Source of the DNA: Chitinophagaceae bacterium
GTDB taxonomy: Bacteria; Bacteroidota; Bacteroidia; Chitinophagales; Chitinophagaceae
DNA: 33,589 bases
Direction: 5' to 3'
Assembly (NCBI GenBank): GCA_022841365.1
Contig: JALHRP010000018.1
Coordinates: 26,785 to 60,373, forward strand
The notes below the pieces were generated by a model that ran no database searches, was not told the origin of the DNA, and saw only the letters and a list, made by a program, of their open reading frames with translations. The position numbers were made by a program, and so were the translations under genes. Shown here piece by piece: positions 18,357-28,493 of this stretch; within the stretch, counting starts at the first letter, position 1, and each line of letters begins with the position of its first letter.

Positions 18357-18376
18357 TTTCGTTTGTTTTTTTATCT

Positions 18377-18442
18377 GTCAGACGCCCTCGTCGGACAGAT
18401 TTTTTTAGTGATGAATTGCATCGTCCGACGAGGGCGTCTGAC
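18377..18442. repeat. Perfect 20-bp inverted repeat pair with self-palindromic ends
   Basis: GTCAGACGCCCTCGTCGGAC at 18377-18396 is exactly repeated in inverse orientation at 18423-18442, with 26 nt between. Each copy is also bounded by its own short inverted ends: ATCTGTC/GACAGAT around the left copy and CATCGTC/GACGATG around the right copy. Each copy can therefore fold alone, or the two can fold together. The GC-rich core stands out from the AT-rich gap. It looks like two copies of a REP-type dispersed element in opposite orientation upstream of asd. Function is unknown; it may affect asd mRNA or act as a terminator. Confidence 0.8.
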
Positions 18443-18449
18443 GATGGAC

Positions 18450-18478
18450 AAAAAAAAAGCCTTCCGTTTCGGGAAGGC
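18450..18478 (-). terminator. Rho-independent terminator of a small minus-strand unit
   Basis: On the minus strand a 7-bp stem (GCCTTCC / GGAAGGC, plus-strand 18459-18465 and 18472-18478) with a 6-nt loop is followed directly by nine T. This is a classic intrinsic terminator. It lies upstream of asd, so it must end a different transcript, the unit starting near 18567. Confidence 0.8.
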
Positions 18479-22216: not shown

Positions 22217-22259
22217 ATAAAATGCAAAGCCTCCGGTAACCGGAGGCTTTGCATTTTAT
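22217..22259. terminator. Perfect 21-bp hairpin, bidirectional terminator
   Basis: ATAAAATGCAAAGCCTCCGG with one more base (22217-22237) is perfectly inverted at 22239-22259 around position 22238. The A-rich foot and T-rich end serve both strands. It lies 13 nt after the PfkB kinase stop codon and ends that minus-strand gene. Confidence 0.85.
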
Positions 22260-26305: not shown

Positions 26306-27274
26306 ATGTCACTACACGATTTTGATCAGCTATTTCAATCGAAGATTGATCAGGAAATAAAGATTGAGCCGAAGGACTGGATGCCCGACGCTTACCGGAA
26401 AACCAATATCCGGCAAATCAGTCAGCATGCCCACAGTGAAATAGTAGGTATGTTGCCTGAAGGCAACTGGATCAGCCGGGCTCCATCGCTCAAACGCAAA
26501 GCCATCCTCATGGCCAAAGTGCAGGACGAAGCCGGTCATGGTTTGTATCTCTATTGCGCTGCCGAAACATTGGGCATGAGCAGGGAACAAATGATTGATG
26601 ATCTCAACAGCGGCAAAGCAAAATATTCTTCCATCTTTAATTACCCCACTTTAACATGGGCCGATATGGGTGCCATTGGCTGGTTGGTTGATGGCGCTGC
26701 CATTCTCAATCAGGTAATGTTGTGCCGCACCAGTTACGGACCCTATGCCCGGGCAATGGTGCGTATTTGTAAAGAAGAAAGTTTTCATCAACGCCAGGGT
26801 TTTGAATCTTTGCTGGTTTTATCAAAAGGAACTGCTGAACAAAAAGCCATGTGTCAGGATGCCATCAACAGATGGTGGTGGCCAAGCCTGATGATGTTTG
26901 GACCAAAGGATAGTGAAAGCACCAACAGTGATCAGAGCATGAAATGGAAGATCAAACGCAAAACAAATGATGAACTGCGTCAGCAGTTTGTAGATATGTG
27001 TGTGGAGCAGGTGAAATTATTAGGTATGACCTTGCCCGATCCGCATTTGAAATGGAATGCAGAGCGTGGTCATTATGATTTTGGCGAAATTGACTGGAAC
27101 GAATTCTGGAATGTGGTGAAAGGAAATGGACCATGTAACAAACAACGATTAGCTGCCCGCCGCAAAGCACACGAAGAAGGCAAGTGGGTTCGTGAAGCAG
27201 CAGCGGCGTATGCGGAGAAAAGGAAAACAGCCTCCCTAAATCCCTCCAAAGGAGGGACTTTGGCAGCAGCATAA
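26306..27274 (+). CDS. paaA: Phenylacetyl-CoA epoxidase catalytic subunit PaaA, with repeat-derived C-terminus
   Basis: 322 residues from the ATG at 26306; the seven-codon upstream extension starts with TTG. It is strongly conserved with Paa[41 protein letters not shown], and two E-x-x-H iron-binding motifs, in [10 protein letters not shown] and [21 protein letters not shown] and [17 protein letters not shown] follow. It is the diiron oxygenase that epoxidises the ring of phenylacetyl-CoA. Family similarity ends near [16 protein letters not shown]. The last residues, 309-322 ([14 protein letters not shown]), are encoded by a palindromic repeat at 27230-27264, and the stop codon follows 7 nt later. 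paaB starts 18 nt downstream. Confidence 0.96.
27230..27264 (-). repeat. Palindromic repeat copy 1, at the 3' end of paaA (inverted)
   Basis: The core is TCCCTCC-AAA-GGAGGGA (27241-27257), a perfect 7-bp stem. Read on the minus strand, the unit starts CCAAAGTCCCTCCTTTGGAG and continues GGATTTAGGGAGGC. This has the same architecture as the copies in paaB and paaC: AAAGTC, inverted repeat, GATTTAG, G-rich tail. It supplies residues 309-320 of PaaA. Confidence 0.85.
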
Positions 27275-27292
27275 GTAATTGTAAAACTCTGA

Positions 27293-27688
27293 ATGATGAA
27301 CATTCAAATAAGAAAATTTTATTACGGAGATATACCTGATACAAACTCTGGAGGTTCTGTAACTACGGAGTCTTCAAAAGTCTCCCCTTCCGGGGGAGAT
27401 TTAGAGGGGGCCGTCTGGCCCCTCTGGGAAGTATTCATCCGCAGCAAGCAAGGTCTTGATCATAAACATGTGGGCAGTTTAAAAGCTGCAGATGCACAAA
27501 TGGCAATTGAAAATGCACGTGATGTGTATACAAGACGCATGGAAGGTGTCAGCATCTGGGTTGTAGAAAGCAAATACATTCATGCAAGCAATCCCGATGA
27601 AGCAGAAAGCTTATACGATCCTGCAAATGATAAAGTATATCGTCATCCTACATTTTATGATCTACCAGACGAAGTAAAACACATGTAA
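27293..27688 (+). CDS. paaB: Phenylacetyl-CoA epoxidase subunit PaaB, with repeat-bearing N-terminal extension
   Basis: 131 residues from ATG 27293 (a second ATG follows at once). Family PaaB is about 95 residues. The conserved part begins only at residue 42: WPLWEVFIRSKQGLDHKHVG, then ENARDVYTRRMEGVSIWVVE and VYRHPTFYDLPDEVKHM. Residues 1-41 are extra. Residues 29-40 (KVSPSGGDLEGA) are encoded exactly by the 36-bp palindromic repeat at 27377-27412. No ATG lies between the repeat and the conserved part, so the extension cannot simply be trimmed by choosing a later ATG. PaaB is a small structural subunit needed for the PaaABCE complex. paaC starts 19 nt downstream. Confidence 0.93.
   Translation: MMNIQIRKFYYGDIPDTNSGGSVTTESSKVSPSGGDLEGAVWPLWEVFIRSKQGLDHKHVGSLKAADAQMAIENARDVYTRRMEGVSIWVVESKYIHASNPDEAESLYDPANDKVYRHPTFYDLPDEVKHM
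27377..27412 (+). repeat. Palindromic repeat copy 2, in frame in paaB
   Basis: A 36-bp unit, AAAGTCTCCCCTTCCGGGGG followed by AGATTTAGAGGGGGCC. It contains the stem TCTCCCC/GGGGAGA (27381-27387 and 27393-27399). It is identical at all 36 positions to the copy in paaC and is read in the same phase, giving KVSPSGGDLEGA. A second hairpin can form just after it between GAGGGGGCC and GGCCCCTC (27404-27424). Confidence 0.95.
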
Positions 27689-27707
27689 GTTCAACTGATA
27701 ATTTTTA

Positions 27708-28493
27708 ATGGATAATTCTTTAATCAACTACACACTTCATCTTGCAGACACAACCCTCATTCTTTCGCAACGAAACAGTGAGTGGTGTGGCCACGGACCA
27801 ATACTGGAACAGGATATTGCCATCACCAATATTTCACTGGACTTGTTAGGGCAATCAAGAAATTTTTATCAATACGCTGCACAATTAATAAACTTCTCCA
27901 AACATTCGGAGGCTAAAGTCTCCCCTTCCGGGGGAGATTTAGAGGGGGCCTCAGAAGACTCCTTAGCCTACTTACGAACCGAACGTGAGTTCAAAAATTT
28001 ATTATTGGTTGAGTTGCAGAACGGCGATTGGGGACAAACTGTTTTACGTCAGTTTTTCTTCAGTCAGTTTCAGTATTTATTGTTTGAGCAACTGCAGCAA
28101 AGTAAGGATGAACAATTAGCAGCCATTGCAGCAAAAGCAATTAAAGAAACCACCTATCATGTTCGTTGGAGCAGTGAGTGGGTGATTCGTTTGGGCGACG
28201 GTACAGATGAAAGTCATCAACGGATGCTCCATGCCATTGATGAACTGTGGCGCTACACCGGCGAACTATTTGAAGCTGCAGAATATGAAACAGCCATGGG
28301 TATTGATCTTGCTGCCATCAAACAAAAATGGACAGAAAAGGTAATAGCTGTTTTTGATGAAGCTACTCTTCCTGTTCCTGAAAACAGTTTTATGCAACTG
28401 GGCGGCAAGAAAGGAGTGCATACAGAACAGCTCGGTTATATCTTAACAGAATTGCAGTACATGCAACGCACTTATCCAAACAGCAACTGGTAA
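27708..28493 (+). CDS. paaC: Phenylacetyl-CoA epoxidase structural subunit PaaC, with repeat-derived loop
   Basis: 261 residues, ATG 27708, compared with about 248 in E. coli. The family pattern is clear: LSQRNSEWCGHGPILEQDIA, ISLDLLGQSRNFYQYAAQL, then LRTEREFKNLLLVELQNGDW, AIKETTYHVRWSSEWVIRLG and GGKKGVHTEQLGYILTELQY. Between YAAQL and DSLAYLR, where E. coli PaaC has a short acidic linker, there are about 17 extra residues. Residues 70-81 of these (KVSPSGGDLEGA) come from the 36-bp repeat at 27915-27950. PaaC has the ferritin-like fold of PaaA without the iron and holds the complex together. Its TAA overlaps the first base of the paaD ATG, so the two are translationally coupled. Confidence 0.95.
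   Translation: MDNSLINYTLHLADTTLILSQRNSEWCGHGPILEQDIAITNISLDLLGQSRNFYQYAAQLINFSKHSEAKVSPSGGDLEGASEDSLAYLRTEREFKNLLLVELQNGDWGQTVLRQFFFSQFQYLLFEQLQQSKDEQLAAIAAKAIKETTYHVRWSSEWVIRLGDGTDESHQRMLHAIDELWRYTGELFEAAEYETAMGIDLAAIKQKWTEKVIAVFDEATLPVPENSFMQLGGKKGVHTEQLGYILTELQYMQRTYPNSNW
27915..27950 (+). repeat. Palindromic repeat copy 3, in frame in paaC
   Basis: Identical over 36 bp to the paaB copy, 538 nt away, in the same orientation and reading phase. A further outer inverted pair, GGCTAA (27911-27916) and TTAGCC (27963-27968), surrounds it. The unit encodes residues 70-81 of PaaC. Confidence 0.95.

Follow-up and report, generated by a model that had tools for sequence, protein, structure and literature searches.

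The adjacent genes paaA, paaB and paaC for subunits of phenylacetyl-CoA epoxidase, located in a 33,589-nucleotide stretch of a Chitinophagaceae bacterium (contig JALHRP010000018.1, positions 26,785 to 60,373; this whole stretch is called the window below and all gene and unit coordinates are counted from its first letter), each contain one in-frame copy of a short palindromic unit. The unit is a hairpin of one pyrimidine and one purine arm, followed by a 3' tail which mirrors the purine arm (TCTCCCC..GGGGAGA-TTT-AGAGGGG). This arrangement is that of the intrastrand-triplex motif PIT/TM, which was reportedly described by Hoyne in 2000, as cited in Holder 2015 (PMC4666352). Both the covariation of the three strands and the mobility of the unit are well supported. 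Hairpins of this type also bound inserts with a DUF559 nuclease domain, a domain of unknown function in Pfam, which lie in frame within conserved enzymes. The paa units are probably, though by no means certainly, solo terminal repeats of a non-splicing, in-frame mobile element carrying this domain.

Palindromic units in the phenylacetyl-CoA epoxidase genes

The reading frames on the plus strand of the window were assigned to paaA (26309–27274; TIGR02156, 544.8 bits), paaB (27293–27688; TIGR02157 at residues 42–131) and paaC (27708–28493; TIGR02158). The paaB unit at 27377–27412 and the paaC unit at 27915–27950, both on the plus strand, share the sequence AAAGTCTCCCCTTCCGGGGGAGATTTAGAGGGGGCC at 36 of 36 positions, and the copy in paaA at 27230–27261 (AAAGTCCCTCCTTTGGAGGGATTTAGGGAGGC) is diverged and inverted, reading AAAGTC-CCTCC-TTT-GGAGG-GATTTAG-GGAGGC on the minus strand. 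In the paaB unit the 5' pyrimidine arm comprises positions 27381–27387, the 3' purine arm 27393–27399, the TTT linker 27400–27402, and the mirror tail 27403–27409. All three open reading frames (ORFs) are uninterrupted and the unit is translated in each of them, as KVSPSGGDLEGA in paaB and paaC and as another 11-residue peptide in paaA. Family alignments placed the units in an N-terminal linker of PaaB ahead of the conserved domain, in a loop of variable length in PaaC (also in comparison to PDB entry 1otk), and at the C-terminus of PaaA. An initial annotation made from the letters of the window had claimed just this, i.e. a palindrome which entered three consecutive genes in frame at places where the families vary or end, and these claims were borne out. 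The AlphaFold model of PaaC has a mean predicted local distance difference test score (pLDDT) of 94, and residues 71–80, which comprise ten of the twelve insert residues, score 60. No distant ortholog carrying the same residues was found in the first 45 rows of the alignments, which have 81, 78, and 72 rows, and more copies of the unit do exist in the genome (see below), so that neither outcome named as refuting in the initial annotation occurred. By its PaaA sequence the closest named relative found is the Chitinophagaceae metagenome-assembled genome SCNH_8 with 94%.

A 30-base pair (bp) core with up to three mismatches matched twice in the window and never in 100 shuffles, which rejects chance. 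The triplex-type core of the paaA unit spans 27231–27257, and the strict scan yielded no match in 30 windows simulated by a first-order Markov model. When no mismatch was permitted, this core alone was listed in the window, and scans allowing one pairing mismatch listed all three units; those of paaB and paaC are absent from the mismatch-free scan because their arms are extended to 8 bp with one mismatch.

Directly 5' of the paaB hairpin lies CGGAGTCTTCA (27366–27376, plus strand), which by eye bears a loose likeness of uncertain meaning to TCGGAGGCT beside some other units, and directly 5' of the paaC hairpin lies TTCGGAGGCT (27905–27914, plus strand). Repeats of other kinds were also seen in the window. 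At 18362–18396 and 18423–18457 there is an inverted pair, GACGCCCTCGTCGGAC and GTCCGACGAGGGCGTC, reminiscent of CGTC-tagged palindromes; a perfect, terminator-like inverted repeat of 21 bp with a one-nucleotide spacer is found at 22217–22259; and positions 3–611 contain two direct repeats, spaced by about 330 bp and 75% and 85% alike.

Three-strand covariation and mobility of the unit

The tail read outward repeats the 3' arm read inward. This was quantified on sequences collected from 395 Bacteroidota genomes by a strict search pattern which leaves the tail free apart from its last base, which must not be T and was dropped. Fifty-one genomes were positive, which bears out the statement in the initial annotation that such units are common in Bacteroidota. 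With identical and nearly identical repeats within a genome excluded, 101 of 130 listed sequences were typed; the 72 whose stem was perfect over 3 bp or more were kept, and the other 29 were dropped. Across 37 distinct 3' arms 192 of 214 triads (0.90) were allowed purine-motif triads, i.e. G.G-C, A.A-T, or T.A-T, with a C in the tail counted as failure. Shuffling gave a mean fraction of 0.53 with a maximum of 0.63, and none of 5000 shuffles was as high as the observed value; sliding or reversing the tail let the fraction fall to 0.41–0.55. A stem A was accompanied by A or T in the tail in 65 of 67 cases and a stem G by G in 127 of 133 cases (table 65, 2 / 6, 127; p = 8e-43; cells with a tail C lie outside the table). 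As such a parallel copy is impossible from ordinary hairpin pairing, selection for a triplex or for a triplex-reading protein is suggested. Judged from the letters one strand of the unit could fold into a pyrimidine-purine-purine structure, and a triplex may form in the cell. The hairpin energy itself is unremarkable in comparison to dinucleotide shuffles (z of −1.1 for the paaB and paaC unit and −2.1 for the paaA unit). A test of hairpins irrespective of the tail yielded 37 versus 16.5 ± 3.1 in shuffled sequence with each palindrome counted on both strands, and because of this double counting the three-strand test was preferred.

In the genome of the host, a 4.56 Mb assembly in 326 contigs, a 29-bp core was found eight times with up to three mismatches. 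Seven of these copies lie in frame within genes, namely paaB, paaC, leuS, argC, trpE, a MiaB-like gene, and ispG; six of the in-frame copies yield a peptide of the KVSPSGGDLEGA type and the one in the MiaB-like gene is inverted. The remaining copy lies across no long frame, and in codon-usage scoring it ends an antisense gene. A motif scan of 40 stretches of the host genome (0.76 Mb) listed 98 motifs versus 14 in a reversed control, a count which is no genome density because the stretches were partly picked for their matches. The motifs are patchy, and many form inverted pairs 40–150 bp apart with conserved inner edges. When the 102 motif hits of the 40 stretches and the window were classified by codon usage, chance hits included, 54 were intergenic, 16 within frames, 6 C-terminal, 16 N-terminal or in the 5' flank, and in 10 the unit stops the frame. 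The classifier replaced a first one which had missed known in-frame copies, and it still scored those of paaB and paaC as 5' flank.

Further repeats were observed in the host genome. Contigs C1, C2, C6, and C11 contain intergenic inverted pairs of triplex-type hairpins with the conserved inner motifs GAAATGCTTAATTACA... and AAGCTGGCTTTGTGC; these pairs are similar to miniature inverted-repeat transposable elements and distinct from the subfamily found with DUF559. The IspG/GcpE locus (L204:12750–14999) encodes more repeat-like in-frame peptides beyond those of the KVSPSGGDLEGA type, for example SPSQTLHGREGF and SPFGGGREGA.

Mobility of the unit is supported by an alignment at the DNA level of the paa sites of eight genomes of the same genus (a ninth was not extractable), where sister genomes have clean empty sites. 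The loop of PaaC is empty in six and occupied in two of the eight, and the linker of PaaB is occupied in three (by two types) and empty in five. At the end of PaaA three genomes carry the type of the window, two have hairpins which by eye are of other types, and the remaining three have no unit. In one of the two genomes occupied at PaaC, G586, the site holds another triplex type (CCCCTCC.TTT.GGAGGGG.CTT.GGGGAGG) with the 5' flank TCGGRGGCTAAA unchanged. The same linker of PaaB contains an inverted pair of units in Flaviaesturariibacter flavus and, by eye, one unit in Niastella soli. These occupied, empty, and differently occupied sites point to recurrent insertion at tolerant places where the occupying type can change. 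At the paaA end of G586 a second palindrome, CCCGATAGCTATCGGG, is nested within the unit. The same genome has an insert of several hundred bp between paaB and paaC with other flanking repeats, which is absent in the seven other aligned genomes; its open frame looks like a four-helix-bundle or 23S intervening-sequence protein.

DUF559 inserts mostly bounded by hairpins of the same kind

The leucyl-tRNA synthetase (LeuRS) of the host, a protein of 1207 amino acids, contains an in-frame insert of about 150 codons with a PF04480 (DUF559) domain. Its right end is identical over 35 bp to the unit of paaB and paaC, and an inverted hairpin is located at the opposite end. Among the loci compared, the corresponding region has 33–36 amino acids in nine LeuRS genes of the same genus, which are devoid of the entire insert, versus 184 in genome G000 and 165 in genome G579. 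A second LeuRS-like copy devoid of the insert is found on contig C107 of the assembly, the contamination of which is 4.09%. The same locus (L184:3887–7510) shows an extra N-terminal peptide, NPSTGSGQAP, and two more triplex-type units besides the insert.

Seven PF04480 matches above the cut-off were found in the host genome, with kinship to PDB entry 3hrl (E of 5e-25). Five are inside AroC, adenine deaminase, an AMP-binding (acetyl-CoA synthetase-like) enzyme, LeuRS, and MetH; one is stand-alone and one broken. In four of the five fused inserts the left hairpin is inverted and the right one direct, and the insert ends are translated as hydrophilic linkers rich in glycine, proline, and serine. 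By contrast, the six PF13366 nucleases of the host occur in frames of 131–142 amino acids, and a motif lies within 480 bp of the locus centre in one of the six. DUF559 is present in 76 of 147 genomes of a family sample and in 170 of 296 of a phylum sample, and the sizes of its open frames are bimodal: among 133 listed rows of the family, 66 have up to 220 amino acids, one lies between, and 66 have at least 371 amino acids, the large frames being measured from stop to stop. Further fusion hosts are MetRS, CinA, and a ligase-associated helicase, as well as HsdM below the cut-off; a host could be named for 17 of 20 fused ORFs scanned and for none of L282, L283, and L285.

From the 65 best-scoring DUF559 loci 47 were scored for hairpins at their ends, 18 being missed by the signature pattern and some being near-copies (L247, L248). 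Of the 29 fused inserts among them, 20 have outward-pointing hairpins at each end, 4 have one at a single end, and 5 have none; inward-pointing ones stood at both ends in 3. In a looser scan of 29 loci, three of them with no ORF by the pattern, 19 of 20 fused inserts were flanked on both sides with orientation ignored. A strong DUF559 match was found in 27 of 30 genomes with the hairpin versus 99 of 266 others, uncorrected for kinship; 9 of 39 genomes had been removed by hand from the hairpin list, and those on it are assumed to lie within the phylum sample.

The AroC site is occupied in 3 of 13 genomes of the genus and empty in 10 as shown by split matches, with sequences of five empty sites, and one loop of AroC is used in several genera. 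Comparing G000 with G579, the synonymous divergence (dS) is 0.27 in the AroC insert and 1.00 in its flanks, with none of 1000 bootstraps against; this insert is far younger than the sequence around it and was recently shared. For the nuclease domain the ratio of nonsynonymous to synonymous divergence (dN/dS) is 0.11–0.13 in three pairs; by this comparison of coding sequences the domain is under purifying selection. Among 31 aligned fused domains histidine 84 and aspartate 93, neither of which is part of the selection pattern, are invariant, and the catalytic-type residues D..E.D, two of which the pattern requires, are present in all 31. The tree of the domain clusters by host gene (8 changes versus a shuffled mean of 16.1). 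Yet those of adenine deaminase, MetRS, CinA, the AMP-binding enzyme, and MetH form a moderately supported group, so elements have changed hosts. The AroC which bears the domain is the sole AroC match in the host genome and its flanks are conserved at the protein level (dN of 0.06), so the interrupted enzyme probably works. The compared insertion sites are too diverged for defining a target-site duplication.

At the ends of the inserts of AroC (both ends), adenine deaminase, LeuRS, CinA, and others TCGGA or TCGGG adjoins the hairpin, and the same is seen beside the solo units of the paaC, argC, and MiaB-like genes. As a shared subterminal motif this was convincing by eye and weak once counted.

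Proposed mechanism, alternatives and known systems

As described above, two outward hairpins mostly bound the DUF559 (PD-(D/E)XK-like) domain that lies in frame within conserved enzymes. In the mechanism proposed here, the nuclease would stay tethered inside a working host protein and never be spliced out. The nuclease would recognise or cut the folded ends, and repair would copy the whole element, or a single end, into new sites, where in-frame insertions at tolerant loops alone would survive. A unit already settled may in time give way to another triplex type, which would account for the different type seen at the paaC site of G586. DUF559 may thus also move the solo units. The widest form of the proposal states that a non-splicing DUF559 element with outward three-stranded ends homes or transposes in frame between conserved genes, and sheds solo repeats writing short peptides across Bacteroidota, with the triplex end as recognition signal. 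This we consider just about as likely to be right as wrong, with a slight leaning towards right. A triplex end as recognition signal would explain the three-strand covariation and the spread of PIT/TM elsewhere.

Several findings weigh against this proposal. All evidence for mobility is comparative and no transposition was seen. Hairpins far outnumber DUF559 (98 motifs in the 0.76-Mb sample versus 7 genes in the host genome), which calls for a second mover or for action in trans, and many hairpins belong to other subfamilies. Five of the 29 fused inserts are devoid of both scored hairpins and four have one; those of the host MetH insert are weak and point inwards; and both hairpins are present in 3 of 18 stand-alone DUF559 loci. 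TCGGR occurs within 25 nucleotides of 8 of 48 insert ends versus 3 of 48 in a control window, and near 6 of 83 elements of the host genome (five of these six among the 19 with a TTT linker) versus 1 of 83 in the control; with these weak counts it is chiefly the hairpin they share, together with the identity over 35 bp in LeuRS, that ties the solo unit to DUF559. The test for a younger insert was non-significant for AroC of G000 and G584 (P = 0.086) and LeuRS of G000 and G579 (P = 0.092), with the direction agreeing. The invariance of the glutamate and the second aspartate in D..E.D is no independent evidence because both are required by the selection pattern. According to the discussion of PMC4666352, a triplex in vivo was not supported by footprinting of the E. 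coli motif.

That the unit is a REP-like element (repetitive extragenic palindrome) moved in trans by a Y1 (RAYT/IS200-type) transposase, and DUF559 a passenger or an independent selfish gene trapped between hairpins, is unlikely. Hairpins with a conserved asymmetric tail do resemble REPs, for which a location within ORFs is on record in the available text of PMC3733652; the host genome has five matches to PF01797, and solo units and DUF559 ends share a hairpin and little else. However, a scan of about 1.5 kb on each side of the match found a triplex-type hairpin at none of the five Y1_Tnp loci, which ruled out this transposase as neighbour of the unit, by eye the unit has no GTAG or CGTC tag, and at empty LeuRS and AroC sites hairpins and DUF559 are missing together. 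An ordinary selfish palindrome with another mover, the mirror tail being a G-rich by-product and the association with DUF559 a coincidence of two frequent repeats, we regard as distinctly improbable. It could draw on the precedent of known in-frame palindromes, on paa units which require no nearby nuclease, and on the unremarkable hairpin energies, but would have to account for the base-by-base match of tail and stem and for the biased orientation of hairpins at the insert ends.

The large share of intergenic hits (54 of 102) would suit a regulatory or structural DNA or RNA element which benefits the host and is occasionally copied in frame. This is very unlikely to be the case, as presence varies within one genus at all three paa sites, six loci gave no Rfam match up to an E of 0.1, and the nuclease is under purifying selection. 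Splicing elements, with the hairpins as part of a splicing structure, come to mind because a nuclease inserted in frame into a conserved gene is what inteins and group I introns typically show; yet no intein domain was found with Pfam at an E of 0.001 in the five fused ORFs of the host genome or with NCBIfam at an E of 1e-20 in 20 fused ORFs, and no Rfam intron up to an E of 0.1 in the six loci, five of which contain DUF559, which leaves this explanation hardly any credit. Of the interpretation in the initial annotation the mobile palindrome entering genes in frame holds, as does the likeness to Rickettsia palindromic elements in behaviour (in-frame insertion and empty sites), whereas the mirror third strand and the link to a nuclease gene had been missed. 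The data are explained by selfish insertion that is tolerated, and do not show the role it suggested for the unit in diversifying proteins.

A mobile DUF559 element with solo repeats would join three loose ends, i.e. the spread of the triplex (PIT/TM) motif, the mover of in-frame palindromes, and the role of DUF559. To our knowledge no mover of in-frame palindromes is known. In E. coli the 23 copies of the PIT/TM motif are 37 nucleotides long and all intergenic, and the absence of any mobile gene found in their vicinity left their means of spread unexplained (PMC4666352). Should the proposal be true, a three-stranded DNA end serves as the signal of a nuclease which lives unspliced inside essential proteins, and tolerated insertions of peptides and domains have a natural source that recurs. 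In the open-access literature no paper was found that deals with DUF559 inserts in frame or with the present unit in Bacteroidota, and the word stems Bacteroid-, Chitinophag-, and Flavobac- are absent from the main text of PMC4666352.

The tests made on its sequence place the nuclease insert with none of inteins, introns, and REP/RAYT systems. With inteins and homing-endonuclease introns it shares the nuclease in conserved genes, the reuse of one AroC loop across genera, and an AroC insert younger than its flanks, but hairpins stand at its ends, close kin of it lie in host genes that are unrelated, and no splicing domain or intron could be found in it. As in REP/RAYT systems (REPtrons), an enzyme gene stands between hairpins of inverted orientation, which are also found solo and in part inside ORFs, and CGTC repeats have been reported from Bacteroidetes (both from the available text of PMC3733652); in contrast to these systems the enzyme is DUF559 and not a Y1 transposase, it lies in frame inside conserved proteins, and no GTAG or CGTC tag is seen by eye. 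Rickettsia palindromic elements, mentioned in the available text of PMC3733652, are likewise short palindromes that have entered unrelated proteins in frame and leave empty sites in relatives, but the three-strand design and the long form bearing a nuclease set the present element apart; the likeness is one of behaviour. With PIT/TM, as portrayed in the available text of PMC4666352, it has in common the hairpin with a mirror purine third strand, the many copies, the inverted pairs of two types, and loci which vary between strains, and it differs in that its units lie in frame in genes (seven of the eight close copies) and at the ends of nuclease inserts. The solo unit taken alone is an in-frame palindrome combined with the TM/PIT design.

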